From the IMG/VR virus record IMGVR_UViG_3300003323_001142, positions 1 through 64,000 of that record: a DNA stretch of 64,000 nucleotides; one strand, given 5' to 3'. Source of the stretch: a virus. The notes beneath the pieces are model-generated. The model was not told the DNA's origin and searched no databases. It saw only the letters and a list, made by a program, of their open reading frames with translations. A program made the position numbers and the translations under genes. This document shows, in pieces, positions 5,753 to 54,934 of this stretch (position 1 is its first letter; every line of letters starts with the position of its first letter).

Positions 5753-5986
5753 CTATTTTGCGGGCCGTAGCTTTTTCTCGATTGCGTCCAAAATGGCCTG
5801 CTCAACTGCGCCTGCGCGCCCTGAACGACCCGAACTTGAATATCCGAGGTCAACCAGTTGCTGGAGCGCGGCCGCAGCATCTGGGCGAAGGTCTACCTCG
5901 ATAGAGGTAAGCCCGGCGGCCCGACGCTCCGCCCGACTCTTCGACGGCCCGCTTGGCCCGGAAACGCGGCGCTTATGGTTCATCAC
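5753..5986 (-). CDS. Small ribbon-helix-helix-like regulator
   Basis: The 77-residue protein has a basic N-terminus, then LTSIEVDLRPDAAAALQQLVDLGYSSSGRSGRAGAVEQAILDAI. That is the strand-helix-helix pattern of RHH DNA-binding dimers. It overlaps the HNH gene (ATGA) and sits between two promoters carrying the same palindromic operator, which suggests autoregulation. The family assignment is an inference from pattern. Confidence 0.5.
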   Translation of the reverse strand: MMNHKRRVSGPSGPSKSRAERRAAGLTSIEVDLRPDAAAALQQLVDLGYSSSGRSGRAGAVEQAILDAIEKKLRPAK

Positions 5987-6663
5987 GACCCAGTTGCCTT
6001 CGTCGTGACGCCGAGTGGATGCCGGACCATCGGCCTCTCAGGCCTGCGCCGGACCGGAGTTGTTGCTGCCCTAGTCGGATCCCATCCGACACGAAGGCGC
6101 TTATAGAATACCCAATCCGAGATCTGGTTACGGCGCGCTAGCTCGATCGCGAGCACGCGCTCTTCGCCAGTCCGGACAGCCACCGTATTCCGGCGGTTGT
6201 TAATTTGATCCAGATGCGTGGCCCACCGGCAATTCGCCGGCCACCCGTTCCGGATGCATTCTTCGCACTTACCGCAGGAGTAGTGGCCGTCGTTGTTGAT
6301 CCGGTCGATGGAATGCGCTGCGGACGGCCGTGCCCCCATGTCGTCGCGGAAAGAAGAAAAATCGCTAAGCCAGCGAGCGCAGACCCGGACCCCTCGGCCG
6401 CCATAAGCGCTGTACTTAGGATCATCGACAACCAGACACCTTCGCCTCATTGCCTTCCAGCAACTGTACTCGGGCGTACCCGCCGCCCCATGAATCCTTT
6501 GCGCGCCTAGGCAGCCGCAGCATCGAGTACTGCCCGATCGTAGTGCATCTCCGCGCACCTCCCGCCGTTCTCCGCAGTCACAAATACACTTCCAGTATCG
6601 TTTCTGACCGTTAGATTTGCCAATCGCAACCACGGTGAGCAGTCCGAATTTATGCCCGACCAT
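5983..6663 (-). CDS. HNH-type endonuclease (zinc ribbon, HNH, NUMOD-like tail)
   Basis: The start at M-V-G-H-K-F-G-L-L-T-V fits the family's usual N-terminus (GxxFGxLTV followed by WKCICDCG). A zinc ribbon follows (CDC...CCGC), then YGGRGVRVCARW, DDMGARP, SIDRINNDG and NCRWAT, the hallmark of phage HNH nucleases related to AP2/HNH homing enzymes. The C-terminus (LAIELARRNQISDW..YKRLRVGW) resembles a NUMOD DNA-binding repeat. It is probably a free-standing homing-type nuclease. Two upstream ATGs overlap the promoter. Confidence 0.7.
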   Translation of the reverse strand: MVGHKFGLLTVVAIGKSNGQKRYWKCICDCGERREVRGDALRSGSTRCCGCLGAQRIHGAAGTPEYSCWKAMRRRCLVVDDPKYSAYGGRGVRVCARWLSDFSSFRDDMGARPSAAHSIDRINNDGHYSCGKCEECIRNGWPANCRWATHLDQINNRRNTVAVRTGEERVLAIELARRNQISDWVFYKRLRVGWDPTRAATTPVRRRPERPMVRHPLGVTTKATGS

Positions 6664-6700
6664 GGCCGCTGGTGAGACCTTGCCTCGCGTCATGCTTCGC

Positions 6701-6729
6701 ATTATGCGCGCTATCCGGAGCGGCGCACG
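6701..6729 (-). promoter_or_regulatory. Promoter sharing the 5725 operator
   Basis: A good -10 CATAAT (minus strand, 6701-6706) is preceded by an imperfect palindrome at 6705-6727 with the TCCGGAT core. The plus-strand 15-mer matches 14 of 15 bases with the operator at 5725. The -35 is weak (about 6724-6729). It drives the HNH-RHH pair. Confidence 0.45.
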
Positions 6730-19328: not shown

Positions 19329-19530
19329 TGTAATCCCCGTACTGTTCGAGGTGCTCTTTGCTCCAGTAGCTCTCATGTTCGCGGTTCAATGCCCGGAGAT
19401 CGCGAATGGGCTTCTTCACGATGTTCGCCGACCGTGAGCGGTCGCAAAGGAAGATGCCGTGCCAGCACGTAGCCATCAGGCACTCGCTGCACACGGTCAC
19501 GAGACGGTCGGCGTCCGACTGCTCACCCAT
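19321..19530 (-). CDS. Small Cys-containing protein
   Basis: The start MGEQSDADRLVTVC gives 69 residues with C-x2-C-x4-C-x7-C (CSECLMATCWHGIFLC), a likely metal site. It overlaps the preceding small ORF. Function unknown. Confidence 0.45.
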   Translation of the reverse strand: MGEQSDADRLVTVCSECLMATCWHGIFLCDRSRSANIVKKPIRDLRALNREHESYWSKEHLEQYGDYNG

Positions 19531-19651
19531 CGCTCTCTCCTTTGCCGGCGGCGGGGGCCCCCGGTGCCCGGCGGCAGCGGCCAATCCAGTCGACAGGCAC
19601 GGGCGAAGGTGCGCTAGGAATGGGAATTGCGGCAAAGAACCCTTCACCCAT
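19523..19651 (-). CDS. Small ORF in the 3' end of the ATPase frame
   Basis: ATG at 19651, with AGGAGG a few bases before it on the mRNA, opens MGEGFFAAIPIPSAPSPVPV (42 residues). It is in the same frame as the ATPase, so it is either an independent gene or the ATPase C-terminus. The strong SD argues for independent initiation. Confidence 0.4.
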   Translation of the reverse strand: MGEGFFAAIPIPSAPSPVPVDWIGRCRRAPGAPAAGKGESDG

Positions 19652-21037
19652 GAGACACCTCCTTCGGCTGCTCGGCCATCGCGCGCTCGTACTTTTCAAT
19701 CGCCGCCCTGGGACCGACGAGCAATCCGCTCCCGTCGCAGCGATCGCAGGTGTCTTCAATTGCCTCACCGGGGTGCGGCCCCCGATGGTGAAATCGGAGC
19801 TTGCCTTTGCCGACAGGCCTCCGCTCGCCGGCTTCGGGACCTTCGGCGCCTCTCGGTGTAAGCCGTCAATCGTATGGCGATTGTCCTCGGGTGCGTCATT
19901 CGCCTTTGGCGCGATGCTCTGGCGGCTTTCGGGGGGAATGGTTCGCTCGAGCGCGCGGGATTTGTACCCGTGCAGGGCGCCGCGCGCGTTGTTGAGCGCG
20001 AGGGTGATGCCCTGCTCTATCTCCGACTTGAGCCGCCCCCACGCCTCCTCATCGAAAACCGGAACCTCGACCCGCTCGGGCTCGTGCTTCGCCGTCTGAG
20101 CCTCGAGCTCGGCGATTCGCGCCCGCGGCGCTTTCGGGTCGTCGGCCTTGGCCCGCTCGATGGTGGCCGCCATCGTGACTCGGAGCTTCTCGAGATCGAT
20201 CGGCGCAAGCTTTCCGGCCGGGACCTCGGTCCCGAATTCGGGGGTCGCAGAACCATCGAACGTGCGCTTTTTACCGAACCGGATTCTTTTGAGCACGCCG
20301 AGCCATTGCGGGCTCCAGCAGAAGCAGTCGCCGGTCGGCAGGTCCGGGAGCTGCTTGACGAGCTCGCCCACATCGATCGACTTGCTCACGATCCACGACT
20401 CGATCGCCTTCCGATCTTGCTTTGCGTTCTGCCGGAAGCAGAAGAGCGTTTCTACCTGATTGAGCACATCCTTGTTCACCGCAGCGGCGCGCTGGGAGAT
20501 GAGGATCGTCCCGATGCCGTAGTTGCGCCCCTTCTTGATGAGCTTTTCGACGGCGCCAACCATCGCTGCGGCATCGCTCATCACCCGCTGGGGCACGATG
20601 TCCTGGCATTCCTCCCAGACCACCATGAGGGGCGACCGCGATCCCTTTTTGAGTCGGAGAAGCGCCGTTGCGAACGCCGTCACGAACTTCCGGAGCTCGC
20701 CCCCCGTGAAATCCGACACGTCGATCACGAGCGGGCTGCGGGTCGACACCGCGGTGTCGGCGACGAGCTCGCCATGACCCGCATCAAGCGGCAGGTCCCC
20801 TTGCTCCCCGCCGAGAATGGGAATCGGTATGCCGGGGCCCTTGCCGTCGGCCGCGAGTCGCAGGCTTCCCCAATTGCCGACCGTGTCGATGATGAGGACC
20901 TGGGCCCCAGCGTCGAGGAGCTCTTCCACGAGCTTGCCGGTTCCGTAGGTCTTGCCGCTGCCCGAGATGCCCAAAACCGCCATTTTCTGCGTAACGGCGT
21001 TCGGTGGGAGAGATAGATCGTGGGAGACGCGGAGCAT
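19523..21037 (-). CDS. HerA/FtsK-like ATPase, C-terminus probably rearranged
   Basis: MLRVSHDLSLPPNAVTQKMAVLGISGSGKT places a Walker A (GISGSGKT) at about 23-30. Walker B is LMVVWEECQD (about 142), with a downstream sensor-like ILISQRA. This is the DUF87/HerA class of DNA-translocating ATPases, often found with recombination nucleases. A helical region (300-400) follows. After residue about 425 the sequence loses family-like character and runs in frame through an out-of-frame zinc-finger gene remnant. Its start overlaps the previous stop (TGATG). It probably acts with the RecE-like and Sak4-like proteins in recombination. Confidence 0.7.
   Translation of the reverse strand: MLRVSHDLSLPPNAVTQKMAVLGISGSGKTYGTGKLVEELLDAGAQVLIIDTVGNWGSLRLAADGKGPGIPIPILGGEQGDLPLDAGHGELVADTAVSTRSPLVIDVSDFTGGELRKFVTAFATALLRLKKGSRSPLMVVWEECQDIVPQRVMSDAAAMVGAVEKLIKKGRNYGIGTILISQRAAAVNKDVLNQVETLFCFRQNAKQDRKAIESWIVSKSIDVGELVKQLPDLPTGDCFCWSPQWLGVLKRIRFGKKRTFDGSATPEFGTEVPAGKLAPIDLEKLRVTMAATIERAKADDPKAPRARIAELEAQTAKHEPERVEVPVFDEEAWGRLKSEIEQGITLALNNARGALHGYKSRALERTIPPESRQSIAPKANDAPEDNRHTIDGLHREAPKVPKPASGGLSAKASSDFTIGGRTPVRQLKTPAIAATGADCSSVPGRRLKSTSARWPSSRRRCLMGEGFFAAIPIPSAPSPVPVDWIGRCRRAPGAPAAGKGESDG
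19644..19865 (-). pseudogene. Out-of-frame DnaJ-type zinc-finger gene remnant
   Basis: In a frame different from the ATPase, 74 codons encode GEAIEDTCDRCDGSGLLVGP and an ending EKYERAMAEQPKEV, a convincing CxxCxGxG protein. There is no ATG, GTG or other good start at the 5' side. The frame therefore looks like the 3' part of a gene whose start was lost in a deletion that also removed the ATPase 3' end. Confidence 0.4.
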
Positions 21038-30133: not shown

Positions 30134-30676
30134 CTATTGTTTCTTTCGCCCGCTTGCTTCTACTGATTTTTTGTGCCGCGGGTCCGTGTCATTCACGATG
30201 GGTGGATTTGTACCCACGCTCTGCTTGGTGTGCCGCGTGACCGCCTGGGCGATGACATCGTCCGAGCTCATCCGCCAGACCCAGTTCACCACAGCGGCGA
30301 TGTCCTCAAGATCGTACTTGGTTTTTGATAGATACGCGGGCGTTTCCCCGGCAAGCATGAGCGCAGCGGGAGGAAAGTTCGTGTACATGGCCCGGAACTT
30401 GTCCTCGAGCTTCGGCCAGTTGCCAGAATTCCGGTACAGCGGCACCGGCTGGTCGCCGACGAGGTCCACGTAGGAGTGGTAGCCGAGCAGCTTGGCGACC
30501 CGGATAGCCATCGCCACGCCGCATTTGCCGCCGCCCAGCACGAGCGAAATCATCTGCTGAGACACGCCGACCGCGTCCGCGAGCTCCTTCTGCTTCTCGT
30601 ACCTCTTATTGAGCTCGCGTAAGGCGTCACGCAGGCGATCTGCTTCTGCGGGGGTCAGCGATTTCGGGGTGGCCAT
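30134..30676 (-). CDS. XRE-family repressor (CI-like)
   Basis: The start MATPKSLTPAEADRLRDAL gives 180 residues. Residues about 20-70 form a Cro/CI HTH (QKELADAVGVSQQMISLVLGGGKCG...IRVAKLLG). The rest is an unusual helical C-terminal domain with no LexA-type peptidase motif. It is divergent from the Cro-like gene and flanked by both early promoters, so it is very likely the lysogeny repressor. Induction might use the downstream ImmA-like protein rather than self-cleavage. Confidence 0.75.
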   Translation of the reverse strand: MATPKSLTPAEADRLRDALRELNKRYEKQKELADAVGVSQQMISLVLGGGKCGVAMAIRVAKLLGYHSYVDLVGDQPVPLYRNSGNWPKLEDKFRAMYTNFPPAALMLAGETPAYLSKTKYDLEDIAAVVNWVWRMSSDDVIAQAVTRHTKQSVGTNPPIVNDTDPRHKKSVEASGRKKQ

Positions 30677-30700
30677 GTAGGGAACGTACACGCGGGGCCC

Positions 30701-30761
30701 ACAAATACGCGGGAACAGTGCGGGCGATTTTAGGCTTGCATCGAAACAAATACGGTTGTAC
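30701..30761 (+). promoter_or_regulatory. Operator cluster between repressor and Cro-like genes
   Basis: ACAAATACG occurs at 30701-30709 and 30746-30754, and AATACGGTTGTAC at 30749-30761. The last matches 12 of 13 bases with the operator at the leftward promoter. The 13202-13221 repeat also contains ACAAATACGG on its minus strand. These are likely repressor and Cro binding sites. Confidence 0.55.
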
Positions 30762-30764
30762 AGA
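30736..30764 (+). promoter_or_regulatory. Rightward early promoter (PR-like)
   Basis: TTGCAT (30736-30741), a 17-bp spacer and TACAGA (30759-30764). The operator AATACGGTTGTAC starts 7 bases after the -35 and runs into the -10, exactly as in the leftward promoter. It lies just before the Cro-like gene. Confidence 0.65.
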
Positions 30765-30772
30765 AGAGCACT

Positions 30773-31087
30773 ATGCCGGCCAGGTCGACCAGAAAGAAGG
30801 AGCCGAGAGCGCAAAGGGCGATGAGGGTCGCAGGCGGTCCCAAGCTCGAAGAGTGGCGTAGGGAAAGGGGTTGGTCACAAGACGAACTCGCTACCGCGCT
30901 GACCTGCAGCCAACAGATGGTTTCAGCTCTATGCGGACAGTCGACCACGCCGGGAACGGATCTGGCCACGCGCATCCAGGTGGTCACGCGAGGACGGGTC
31001 AAGGTGCAGGATTGGCTGCCTCCCGAGGAACTCGAGCAAACGCGGGCGGCTGCTCGCCGAGCGCGGTCTGCGGGCCTGGGAGGCTGA
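30773..31087 (+). CDS. Cro-like XRE HTH protein
   Basis: The 104-residue protein has a basic N-terminal extension then KLEEWRRERGWSQDELATAL, CSQQMVSALCGQ and a C-terminal wing, an XRE-type HTH at about residues 24-75. As first gene of the rightward operon, divergent from the repressor, it is the expected Cro equivalent. It could bind the same AATACGSTTGTAC operators. Confidence 0.75.
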   Translation: MPARSTRKKEPRAQRAMRVAGGPKLEEWRRERGWSQDELATALTCSQQMVSALCGQSTTPGTDLATRIQVVTRGRVKVQDWLPPEELEQTRAAARRARSAGLGG

Positions 31088-31090
31088 CCT

Positions 31091-31843
31091 ATGCGAACCC
31101 ACGGCATGAGCCTGACACGTACCTATAAGTCGTGGGCTTCCGCGAAAAGCCGATGCTTCAATCCGAACGCTGACGGCTGGAGGTTCTACGGTGGCCGAGG
31201 CATCACCATGTGCGTACGGTGGCGCTCGTCTTTCTCCGCGTTCTACGCGGACATGGGGACTCGGCCCCGGCGGACGAGTATCGATCGAATCAACAATGAC
31301 GGCAGCTACACCTGCGGCAAATGCGTTGAGTGCGTAGCGAAGGGGTGGCTCTCGAATTGTCGATGGGCAACTGACGAGGAGCAGATTGCCAACTCTTCTC
31401 ACCCAAGAAGAGCGCGACCCGCCCGCGCGCCCAGTCTTGAGCGGAGATCGTACCGCAACTCTGTTAACCGCAGAATCCGGCTCGGTCGCTACCGCGCGAT
31501 GTGGGACGAGATCGGCACACTGTACTCGCCGTTCGATGAAGCTCGGATTGAGTACGACATCCGGACGGAGATTGCCAAGCGGCTCGGCTTCGAGCCATTC
31601 GTGGAGATCCCGAAAGATCTCTCCGCCGACAATTGGCAGGACAGGCCCCTCTTCGATGATCCAACGCCCGGGGCAACGCTGGAAAAGATCGGTGCGCGGT
31701 TCCGGTTCACGCGCGAGCGAGCGCGCCAAATCGAAGCGATTGCTCTCGAGAAGATGCGCAAGCGACTGATTTCGATCGAACCATCGCTCCGCGCCCGCCG
31801 TCCAGTCTCTGCCTGCAAGGTCTCGGCGCGGAGGGCCGCCTAA
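31091..31843 (+). CDS. HNH nuclease fused to sigma-70 region 4
   Basis: Residues about 10-105 follow the phage HNH pattern (YGGRGITMCVRW, DMGTRP, SIDRINNDG, CGKCVEC, NCRWAT) and match the nuclease at 5983-6663. A linker (about 110-185) follows. Residues about 192-230 read ATLEKIGARFRFTRERARQI then EAIALEKMRKR, the sigma-70 region 4.2 signature that binds the -35 element. A nuclease-like domain joined to a promoter-binding helix is unusual. It may target nuclease activity to promoters, or be a transcription factor that uses the HNH fold as a second DNA grip. Confidence 0.8.
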   Translation: MRTHGMSLTRTYKSWASAKSRCFNPNADGWRFYGGRGITMCVRWRSSFSAFYADMGTRPRRTSIDRINNDGSYTCGKCVECVAKGWLSNCRWATDEEQIANSSHPRRARPARAPSLERRSYRNSVNRRIRLGRYRAMWDEIGTLYSPFDEARIEYDIRTEIAKRLGFEPFVEIPKDLSADNWQDRPLFDDPTPGATLEKIGARFRFTRERARQIEAIALEKMRKRLISIEPSLRARRPVSACKVSARRAA

Positions 31844-31846
31844 CCC

Positions 31847-32365
31847 ATGCCCCCGCTCCCCACCGCCCACCTGCGCCCACGATTCGGATCCGCCCAGGAC
31901 ACCCAGTCCGATCGCACCCGCATCCTCTCCGCCCTGGCCGCCGGCCACGTGTCCGCGCTCTCGATCTCCCGCGCAACCGGCATCGAGCGCCGGACCGTCT
32001 ACCGCCATCTCCAATCGCTGGAACGCATCGGCCGCGTCGTCTCGCGCCCGAAGGCCACCGCAAGCACCGGCAAGTACCGCCTCTGGGCTATCGCCCCCGT
32101 CGACGCCAGCGACCCCGAGCCCACCGGCCCGCTCCCCATCCCCCGTCGCCTCCTCGCCGTCATCGCGCTCGGTCCCATCACCCGCGACGCGCTCGCGGAT
32201 CAGCTCGGCATCTCGTCCGCGATCGTTTTGCTGCACCTGCTCGCTCTTGAGCGGAGTCGAGAGATCGTCTGCCAACCGACCCCCGAAGGGACCGTCTGGG
32301 CGCTCCGTAGGCCCCGGCCGCTTTGGGAGCAGGCGCTGGAGCAGCGCGGAAAGCGCGTGGCGTAG
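31847..32365 (+). CDS. Tandem winged-helix DNA-binding protein
   Basis: The 172-residue protein has two wHTH units: TRILSALAAGHVSALSISRA...TVYRHLQSLERIGRVV (about 23-65) and a second (LLAVIALGPITRDALADQLGISSAIVLLHLLALER, about 105-145). Likely a transcriptional regulator or replication accessory protein. The Pro-rich linker suggests flexible binding of two sites. Confidence 0.6.
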   Translation: MPPLPTAHLRPRFGSAQDTQSDRTRILSALAAGHVSALSISRATGIERRTVYRHLQSLERIGRVVSRPKATASTGKYRLWAIAPVDASDPEPTGPLPIPRRLLAVIALGPITRDALADQLGISSAIVLLHLLALERSREIVCQPTPEGTVWALRRPRPLWEQALEQRGKRVA

Positions 32366-33478: not shown

Positions 33479-33892
33479 ATGCGTAGGGGCGAGGCGTTGG
33501 CCGCTGTGGTCGCAGGCCCCGGGATAGCTCGGGCGCGGGAGCGCGGCACCGCCGCTGGGACTTGGGCCACCGTCGTCCGGGTCGGTGGGGGGCATGAGCA
33601 CGAGGCGGAGGATTCTGGCTGTGGTCGTCTGCATGGGGAGATTGGTGCGGATGGATTGGCGAAGACACAACCACCCTCGCCCCTATCTGCGTCAACTGAA
33701 AGCCCGCGCCGTGCATTGGCGAAACTACGTTCGCTTGTTCAGTCCGGGGAGCTGACATGCGGTCAGCTAGCGCTTCGGTGGGGTTGCTCGCGGCAACGGG
33801 CTTGGCACCTGGTCTTTCGCGATAGCGGGCCCGGCGACGAGCGGCTGGCGGATTTGCCGGAGCGGACGCGGCGACGATTGGAGGCTGCTTGA
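33479..33892 (+). CDS. HTH protein upstream of the RNA ligase
   Basis: The C-terminal half (LRSLVQSGELTCGQLALRWG then CSRQRAWHLV...LPERTRRRLEAA) is a clear HTH. The N-terminal 75 residues are of doubtful coding quality, so the true start may be later, for instance TTG near 33708. A different-frame 53-residue ORF (33594-33755, MSTRRRILAVVV) overlaps it. The stop overlaps the RNA ligase start (TTGA). Confidence 0.5.
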   Translation: MRRGEALAAVVAGPGIARARERGTAAGTWATVVRVGGGHEHEAEDSGCGRLHGEIGADGLAKTQPPSPLSASTESPRRALAKLRSLVQSGELTCGQLALRWGCSRQRAWHLVFRDSGPGDERLADLPERTRRRLEAA

Positions 33893-35043
33893 CTCTCATC
33901 CAACAATTCCTTCGTGAGCCAGGCTGGACCGAGACGAAGCTCGATGCGCTGAAGACGCGATACGGCATCACCCATCGCCGGCATTGCGCGTACCCGAACC
34001 TGGTGCTCCTCAAATACAACCAGATCGAGTCACCTTTCGGCGAACCGATCGTCCAGGAATGCCGCGGGATCATCCTCGACGAGGCCGACCATTGGCGCAT
34101 TGTATCGCGGGCCTTCTCGAAGTTCTTCAACCACGGCGAAGGTCACGCGGCTCCTATCGATTGGTCTACCGCCAAGGTCCAGGAGAAGGTCGACGGGTCG
34201 CTGTGCGTTCTCTATTGGTATCGGAACGAGTGGCACGTGGCGACATCGGGCTCCCCCGATGCGAGCGGACAGGTGCAGGGGTCGGGCATTTCGGACGCGT
34301 CCCTCCGCGGCTCGGTCGACACGTTCGCGAGCTACTTTTGGCGGACGTTCCATGACTGCGGGTTGCGGCTACCATCATCCACATCGCGCGACCGCTGCTT
34401 TTTCTTCGAGCTCACCGGACCGATCAACCGCGTGGTCGTAGTACACGATGCCCCTTCGCTCACCCTTCTTGGCGCGCGTCGCCTGACCGATCAGCAAGAG
34501 ATCGACATCGAACGAGCCGCGGACCTTCTCGGTGGCGCGCCGAAAGTCGTGCGCGAGTATCCGCTCCAGTCGTTCGACGACATTGCACGCTCGTTCGAAT
34601 CGATCTCTCCGCTCTCCCAAGAGGGCTACGTCGTGGTCGATCATCGGTTTCACCGCGTGAAGGTGAAGCATCCCGGATACGTCGCCTTGCACCACATGAA
34701 GGGCGGCCTGTCGCAAAAGGCGTTCGTCGAGATAGCGCGTAGTGGAGAAACGTCAGAGGTTCTTTCGACGTTCCCGGAGTTCGCGCCGACGCTCGAAGAG
34801 GCTATCCGGCGGTTCAACGGACTCGTAGCCAGCGTAGCCGCCGACTATGAGCGGCTTGCTGGCATTCCCGAGCAGAAAGCGTTCGCGCTGGAAGCCGTGA
34901 AGACGCGGTGCTCGGCCGCGCTCTTCATGGTGCGAGCTCGTAAGGCGCCGTCGATCGCGGATTACTTCCGCACGATGCAGATCGATCAGCTGGTGAAGCT
35001 GCTTGGCGTGAAGGATGAGCCGATAGCGACGGAGGCGGCTTGA
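33889..35043 (+). CDS. T4 Rnl1-type RNA ligase
   Basis: The TTG start (TTGA overlap) gives 384 residues. YPNLVLLKYNQIESPF and QECRGIILDEAD lead to RAFSKFFNHGEGH, then QEKVDGSL with the adenylated Lys near residue 100. Downstream are FFFELTGPINRVVV (motif IIIa region), QEGYVVVD (motif IV) and VKVKHPGYVAL (motif V). The order and length match phage T4 RNA ligase 1, which seals tRNAs cut by host anticodon nucleases. No polynucleotide kinase/phosphatase partner is visible in the window. Confidence 0.85.
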   Translation: MTLIQQFLREPGWTETKLDALKTRYGITHRRHCAYPNLVLLKYNQIESPFGEPIVQECRGIILDEADHWRIVSRAFSKFFNHGEGHAAPIDWSTAKVQEKVDGSLCVLYWYRNEWHVATSGSPDASGQVQGSGISDASLRGSVDTFASYFWRTFHDCGLRLPSSTSRDRCFFFELTGPINRVVVVHDAPSLTLLGARRLTDQQEIDIERAADLLGGAPKVVREYPLQSFDDIARSFESISPLSQEGYVVVDHRFHRVKVKHPGYVALHHMKGGLSQKAFVEIARSGETSEVLSTFPEFAPTLEEAIRRFNGLVASVAADYERLAGIPEQKAFALEAVKTRCSAALFMVRARKAPSIADYFRTMQIDQLVKLLGVKDEPIATEAA

Positions 35044-53047: not shown

Positions 53048-54934
53048 ATGGGCGCAGCCGTGGCGATCGAACCTCTTCCCGAACAGCCGACCGAGGTGCC
53101 GGAGCGGAGACTCTCGCCCGCGGAAGAGGCGAGGCTTGTTCGGGAGAACCAAGGCCTCGTGCACTTCTTCGCGCGACGCCAGAAAACGACCAGCTACGAC
53201 GACGCTGTCCAGGCTGGGATGATCGGTCTGCTGATAGCGATCAGGAAATTTGAGCCAGAGCGCGGCCTCAAGCTGTCGACCTATGCCCAATATTGGATCC
53301 GCCAAGCCATCGATCGACAGGGATTCGCCGAAGACCCGAAGGGAGATACGCCGAATCTGGCGCGCACCCGGTATAAGATTCGCGAAGCGACCAAACAGCT
53401 AAAGGCGGAAGGCGTTGAGCGGCCGACCATTGCGCAGGTAGGCGAACGAGCAAAGATATTCCCGGCGACTGTGGCGGCAGCGCTCGAATGGCGCAGCGCG
53501 CACGTCAGTTCCTTGGATGCGCCCATCGGGGAGGACGACGGCGCGGCGCTTGTGGACATGGTTCCCGACGATGGCGCCGGGCCAGAGTCGGTCGTAGCCG
53601 AATCCGAGGCCATGGCTATGTTGCGCAAGCAGCTGGATTGTTTCTCGCGTATGTTGCCGCCACGAGAGGCGATTGTTCTGAAAGAGCGGCTCCTAGCTGA
53701 GCAGCCCTCAGGACAAAGAGAGGTGGGCGAGCGCATCAAGCGAACCAAGCAGCGCGTTCAGCAGCTTGAGACAACTGTACTCGATAAGCTTCAGAAGTAC
53801 ATGCGAAGAGTGCACAGAGAGGATTTCGACGTGCGTGCGGCATTGGCTGCTCCGGTTACGAAACTTAGGCCACAGTCGTTCGGCCAGCCAATAGAGGCAT
53901 TATTGGATAGACCCGAGCCGGCGCCTGTGCGCTCGGTTCCGGTCGCAGCAAATGCGGTCAGTGTGCCTGCGGCGAAAGCGCGGGGGTATAAGGTCCCAAC
54001 CTGCGCGAAGTGTGGCGCACCGCTGTCCGTCCGATCGTTACAGCAAGGATATGACCGCTGTGGCGTATGTCGTCAACGCGGTCCCGAGAAGCACCAGGAT
54101 CGGGCCATTCCGGATAATCCTGTGAGTGGCTCGGGTCGGGCTCGGGCGCCAGGTACGGGGAACGTGTGGCACAAGAAGGGGCGCTGGTATGCGAAGGAGC
54201 CGGAATCGATCCAGGATGGCAGGCGGTTCGCGCGATACATCGGCTCGTTTGCGACGGCGGAAGAGGCGCACGCAGCGTGCGATAAGTGGGTCGAAGAGAA
54301 CGGTGGCCCGAAAGTGGAGCGGGTTCTTCCGACGTGCAACGAACCCGGATGTTCAACCTTTCTGAACCAGCGAAGCCTTGAGGCTGGCGATGGGCTGTGC
54401 GGAGTACACCGACGGGATCGAAAGAAGATGGCCGAGCGGGCGAAGGGTGAAGTGGTTGCGGGCGGGCCATCGGCAATCACGGCGTTGGCTGTGGTCGATC
54501 GTGGTCCGAGCGGAACCGAAGAGCGAACGGAGCCGGCGGTAGATACGATTGCTAGCGTCCGCGCGTTTCTCGCAAAGCGCGATGAGCTAAGGGGTAAACT
54601 CGAGAGCGAGTTACAGGCGGCCAAGGCTCGTGTGCGCGAGATCGAGGACCTGCTGGCCGAGTTTGGCGGATCGTCTGCGCGTCCGATTGTGAGGGCCGAG
54701 CGGACCACGGCTCCGTCGGCGCGAACTGAACGCAGGCAGCTTATCAAGGAGTTCGTAATCAACGCGCTGGGCGATAACCGTGGTCCGATGAAGGGGGCCG
54801 AGGTTGTGCACATCGTTCAAAGAATCGACAGCTCGATCCACCACACGTCGGTCTACCAAGCTCTGTATGCGCTGCACCGAGAGCGGAGAATCTGTGCGGA
54901 TGACGGGCAGAATCGATACTGGCTGCGGGCATGA
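53048..54934 (+). CDS. Sigma-70 factor with zinc-ribbon, AP2-like and wHTH extensions
   Basis: Residues about 33-95 are sigma region 2 (SYDDAVQAGMIGLLIAIRKF...KLSTYAQYWIRQAI, which opens the -10). About 105-165 is region 3-like and about 195-255 region 4 (EVGERIKRTKQRVQQLETTV). Added to this core are a C4 zinc site (CAKC...CGVC, about 318-341), an AP2-like DNA-binding domain (GNVWHKKGRWYAKEP...ARYIGSFATAEEAHAACDKW, about 371-419), a second CNEPGC...CGVH site (about 431-455), a coiled coil (500-545) and a terminal wHTH (about 555-628). Probably the phage's middle/late sigma factor. The multi-domain tail may add sequence-specific activation. Confidence 0.85.
   Translation: MGAAVAIEPLPEQPTEVPERRLSPAEEARLVRENQGLVHFFARRQKTTSYDDAVQAGMIGLLIAIRKFEPERGLKLSTYAQYWIRQAIDRQGFAEDPKGDTPNLARTRYKIREATKQLKAEGVERPTIAQVGERAKIFPATVAAALEWRSAHVSSLDAPIGEDDGAALVDMVPDDGAGPESVVAESEAMAMLRKQLDCFSRMLPPREAIVLKERLLAEQPSGQREVGERIKRTKQRVQQLETTVLDKLQKYMRRVHREDFDVRAALAAPVTKLRPQSFGQPIEALLDRPEPAPVRSVPVAANAVSVPAAKARGYKVPTCAKCGAPLSVRSLQQGYDRCGVCRQRGPEKHQDRAIPDNPVSGSGRARAPGTGNVWHKKGRWYAKEPESIQDGRRFARYIGSFATAEEAHAACDKWVEENGGPKVERVLPTCNEPGCSTFLNQRSLEAGDGLCGVHRRDRKKMAERAKGEVVAGGPSAITALAVVDRGPSGTEERTEPAVDTIASVRAFLAKRDELRGKLESELQAAKARVREIEDLLAEFGGSSARPIVRAERTTAPSARTERRQLIKEFVINALGDNRGPMKGAEVVHIVQRIDSSIHHTSVYQALYALHRERRICADDGQNRYWLRA

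Follow-up and report, generated by a model that had tools for sequence, protein, structure and literature searches.

A phage open reading frame that joins an HNH-family domain to a sigma-70 region 4.2-type helix-turn-helix

We analyzed a window of 64,000 nucleotides, positions 1 to 64,000 of the IMG/VR virus record IMGVR_UViG_3300003323_001142 (101,031 bases, GC content 64%). An open reading frame at 31091–31843 (+ strand) encodes a single 250-residue protein, in which an HNH-family domain is followed by a sigma-70 region 4.2-type helix-turn-helix. We favor, with moderate confidence, the view that this fusion belongs with the free-standing phage proteins of the HNH homing-endonuclease type and uses the sigma-type helix-turn-helix as its C-terminal DNA-targeting module, in place of the usual NUMOD-like or AP2 one. 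The fusion was rare or unique in the collections searched, and it follows the plan of a family in which the exchange of tails is common.

The two halves of the fusion protein

The frame contains 250 codons without a stop, and a Shine-Dalgarno-like sequence, GGGAGG (31078–31083, +), lies 7 nt 5′ of the ATG at 31091. An earlier note, made from the sequence, had placed an HNH domain and sigma region 4.2 in one reading frame, which is supported by the frame being open throughout. A promoter scan 5′ of the gene found none. The third-position GC was similar in the HNH and sigma halves; therefore, the proposal that the HNH half is a recent foreign insert was not supported.

Residues 1–104 (31091–31402, +) matched the profiles of phrog_3377 (E = 9.8e-28) and phrog_374 (E = 9.3e-27), as well as phrog_8790 and phrog_2081, and no Pfam HNH family matched this region. 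The first of these matches confirms the proposed membership in the YGGRG...NCRWAT HNH family. The proposed likeness to the HNH open reading frame at 5983–6702 (− strand) also held, with 43% identity (E = 1.5e-33). The AlphaFold2 model, calculated from an alignment of 64 sequences, was confident in the HNH domain, with block means above 90 for residues 11–100. On the basis of this model and the alignment, a β-β-α finger (31277–31396, +) is predicted from a strand at residues 63–66 (SIDR), a strand at residues 90–93 (CRWA), and a helix at residues 95–102. The predicted elements follow the expected β-β-α order, an agreement in order alone that comes without a PDB fold match: the PDB fold search gave nothing significant, and a PDB profile search with the HNH family gave no match. 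The structural matches of the fusion were phage HNH/AP2/HTH homing-type proteins, over approximately 100 residues.

H4 is nearly invariant in the family (73 of 76 readable sequences). The N-terminal Cys-rich region that is usual in the family is missing from the fusion. A 12-residue insertion, CGKCVECVAKGW (residues 75–86; 31313–31348, +), resembles that in the paralogue at 5983–6702, and the two proteins have in common a rare CxxCxxC insertion; a Cys-rich insertion at this position was found in approximately 5 of 86 family sequences. The paralogue carries a NUMOD-like HTH tail and a CapR-like N-terminus, the latter below the threshold.

The sigma region 4.2-type helix-turn-helix and tail comprise residues 193–235 (31667–31795, +) and are closest to RpoH-like factors. 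PF04545 matched residues 194–224 with E = 5.7e-7 and 29.4 bits, above the cut-off of 24.1, although only profile positions 20–50 were covered. We also used a profile made of nine genome sequences, which we take to be RpoH-like from their sequence and the sigma-32 models. This profile scored 42.0 bits over residues 193–235, and the best of 2000 shuffles of the C-terminal half scored 8.5 bits, which indicates that the match is far beyond chance. The NCBIfam sigma-32, RpoD, and MzaA models matched the same stretch, with scores far under their full-length cut-offs. The earlier note had named a profile search of the C-terminal helices as a possible refutation; sigma region 4 was matched in this search. 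The recognition-helix signature RERARQIEA (residues 208–216; 31712–31738, +) aligned with RERIRQIEA of Escherichia coli RpoD, and comparison with RpoD structures showed the recognition helix to be unbroken. Sigma factors make contact with the −35 element through the RER.RQ helix. When the C-terminal half was folded alone, the mean pLDDT was low (47), and helices at the expected HTH positions were the only agreement. Searches for relatives of the C-terminal half alone confirmed none in viral contigs, and in phages they reached no more than the sigma core.

The profile matches begin after region 4.1, the part that assists sigma region 4 in binding the RNA polymerase β flap, and we did not detect this region. 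A 4.1-only profile also missed a true RpoD control, which indicates that this profile lacked power. No Pfam match to sigma region 2 or 3 was found outside region 4. Because these two regions are absent, the fusion cannot replace a sigma factor, and, as judged from its sequence, it is not one. The linker between the two halves (residues 105–192; 31403–31666, +) is predicted to be mostly helical, and no relatives of it were found.

Catalytic positions and tails in the HNH family

The profile alignment of the HNH half to I-HmuI was weak (E = 0.024) but in register. D65, R66, N89, and Q98 of the fusion correspond to D74, H75, N87, and N96 of I-HmuI, with Q98 placed at N96 by counting along the alignment. 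In the published structure of I-HmuI, D74 and N96 are metal ligands and H75 is the general base. In 86 family sequences, including the fusion, the four positions read DRNQ in 72, ERNQ in 8, and DRNN in 5; one was unreadable. The position of H75 is thus Arg in all 85 readable sequences, including the fusion (R66; 31283–31288), and that of the metal ligand N96 is Gln in 80 of the 85. The Arg may partly reflect sample bias, because the members were picked by their similarity to Arg-bearing sequences. A review calls the HNH histidine absolutely conserved (PMC3943268). Nuclease activity is unproven family-wide, because the general-base His is replaced by Arg and the metal-ligand Asn mostly by Gln. 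Given the missing histidine, DNA cleavage by the fusion appears doubtful, and the earlier suggestion of a nuclease placed at −35 elements appears weakened. As the catalytic His is Arg throughout our sample of a very large "HNH endonuclease" family, the annotated activity deserves a direct test.

We surveyed 84 HNH-family open reading frames from viral contigs. Thirty of them end within 35 residues after the HNH domain, and roughly 40, read by eye, carry NUMOD-like HTH tails. AP2 tails occur in a few (Pfam names 3), and some members carry other HTH types. None of the 84 has a clear sigma region 4; Sigma70_r4_2 gave a very weak score in two family members (best 0.0043), and a clear region 4 was found in the fusion alone. 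In this family, one C-terminal DNA-binding module routinely stands in for another, which makes the fusion less exceptional.

The earlier note had called for a search for this domain pair in other phages; no second fusion was found, in searches that require close similarity and are thus of limited sensitivity. Among 50,697 phage and 72,556 plasmid records, no place covered 80% of the fusion protein. Two partly overlapping genome sets, 399 from one phylum and 385 from one class (approximately 780 in all), gave no listed match that spanned both halves. A two-motif DNA pattern for the HNH and sigma parts matched the window once, at the fusion, where zero matches were expected. This form of the pattern was thereby proven on the window, and patterns joining NCRWAT and RERxRQ at set spacings gave 0 matches in viral contigs and 0 in genome contigs, with a sensitivity limited by exact matching and narrow spacing. 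We found no paper on a fusion of HNH and sigma region 4. The fusion looks like a rare module swap and not a new kind of system.

Genome context and explanations of the fusion

The integrase, terminase, portal, and head genes indicate a temperate tailed phage or prophage. A gene for a 104-residue XRE/Cro-like HTH protein (30773–31087, +) has its stop 3 nt 5′ of the fusion start, and a gene with two winged-helix HTH domains (31847–32365, +) lies downstream. A divergent XRE-like, repressor-like gene (30134–30814, −) has an uncertain start, at 30691 or 30814. The fusion gene is second after the Cro-like gene and sits tightly inside the gene run, like a resident gene. In the same rightward run, the product of 33889–35043 (+) strongly matched phrog_562 (RNA ligase/tail fiber attachment catalyst). 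In the leftward run, 19523–21037 (−) encodes a HerA/TrwB-like ATPase (DUF87), which a terminase phrog also matches.

The window had been said to hold another sigma chimera, at 53048–54934 (+). This 628-residue protein is instead a real sigma-70 factor, in which regions 2, 3, and 4 each exceed the Pfam cut-off. Its C-terminal extension of approximately 370 residues has a weak, sub-threshold AP2-like match (E = 0.0021), and its end looks winged-helix-like by eye. Both phage proteins mix sigma parts with homing-type nuclease modules, which may be a coincidence.

In the homing-type reading, the sigma-type helix would bind a short, −35-like site and thereby set the HNH domain beside it; the HNH domain, if active, would nick or cut there, and the gene would spread. 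In phage HNH homing enzymes, a loose tether connects the nuclease domain with modular DNA-binding regions, helix-turn-helices among them (PMC3943268), and the free-standing HNH genes of phages insert intergenically (PMC3706429). This published plan, the HNH match with its predicted finger and homing-type structural matches, the variety of tails among the 84 frames, the NUMOD-like tail of the paralogue, and the region 4.2 match all argue for this reading. Against it, the substitutions at the catalytic His and the metal-ligand Asn mean that cleavage may be absent, the gene lies tight inside a run, the N-terminal Cys-rich region is missing, and a second fusion was not found. Related phages for an empty-site comparison were likewise not found: a terminase search gave none in viral contigs and no more than six distant ones in INPHARED.

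Because the gene lies next to the Cro-like gene, regulation is the main competing explanation, although we consider it rather unlikely. A nuclease-dead HNH fold would serve as a second DNA grip, as the earlier note had also suggested, in an early transcription regulator, and the sigma 4.2 helix on −35 elements would repress or assist promoters within the lysis-lysogeny region. The locus corresponds to the position of cII in lambda, with the divergent repressor-like gene adjoining and the winged-helix gene next, and the Arg at the catalytic position, the intact recognition helix, and the integrase of the phage are consistent with this role. However, position is a weak argument because free-standing HNH genes insert in many places, the Arg is common to the whole HNH family, and region 4.1, an aid to contact with the RNA polymerase flap, went undetected. 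That the HNH domain is instead active with its Arg and is brought to −35 elements by the sigma 4.2 module, the phage nicking host promoters or homing into promoter regions, seems improbable to us; if it were so, the fusion and the sigma factor with the AP2-like domain together would show that modules pass between sigma factors and homing-type nucleases.

The failure to find another fusion in phages, plasmids, viral contigs, or approximately 780 genomes, and a linker without relatives, would also fit an accidental in-frame recombination of an HNH gene with an RpoH-like fragment, possibly decaying and with no role as a fusion. We regard this as unlikely: the frame is open behind a good Shine-Dalgarno sequence, nothing interrupts the sigma recognition helix, by codon usage the sigma half is scored as coding in the phage, and the searches need close similarity. 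Two separate genes, or their joining by a sequencing or assembly artefact, are highly improbable. A simple gene caller did prefer a start at 31499, which leaves the sigma part alone, but this preference is consistent with the amino-acid composition of the HNH part, whose first-position GC is low. The ATG at 31499 lacks a Shine-Dalgarno sequence, the sole strong ribosome site precedes 31091, and no stop or frame break separates the halves; the possibility that the halves are separate genes, which the earlier note had raised against itself, is accordingly unlikely. If the sigma module does target the HNH domain, as the homing-type reading holds, a promoter-reading fold would join the interchangeable DNA-binding modules of phage homing-type proteins.

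Comparison with known systems

The fusion resembles I-HmuI of Bacillus phage SPO1 in the β-β-α finger, the DNA-binding C-terminus, and the retained D74 and N87 positions, but differs in H75 (R66) and N96 (Q98) and in lacking an intron location for its gene. In regard to sigma factors, region 4.2 and the tail are similar to those of RpoH-like (sigma-32) factors (approximately 48% identity over 43 residues), whereas the fusion has neither region 2 nor region 3, and no detected region 4.1. The phage's own sigma-70 factor also has sigma region 4 but has complete regions 2–4, and the two C-terminal regions are distant (23% in a pairwise comparison). The HNH proteins of phrog_3377 and phrog_374, also annotated as "AP2 domain protein" and "PVL ORF-50-like family", have in common with the fusion the family-invariant HNH residues, a free-standing phage gene, and a C-terminal module after the HNH domain. 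Most of them have the N-terminal Cys-rich region that the fusion lacks, and their HNH domain is followed by a NUMOD-like HTH, AP2, or nothing, whereas the tail of the fusion is sigma region 4.2.
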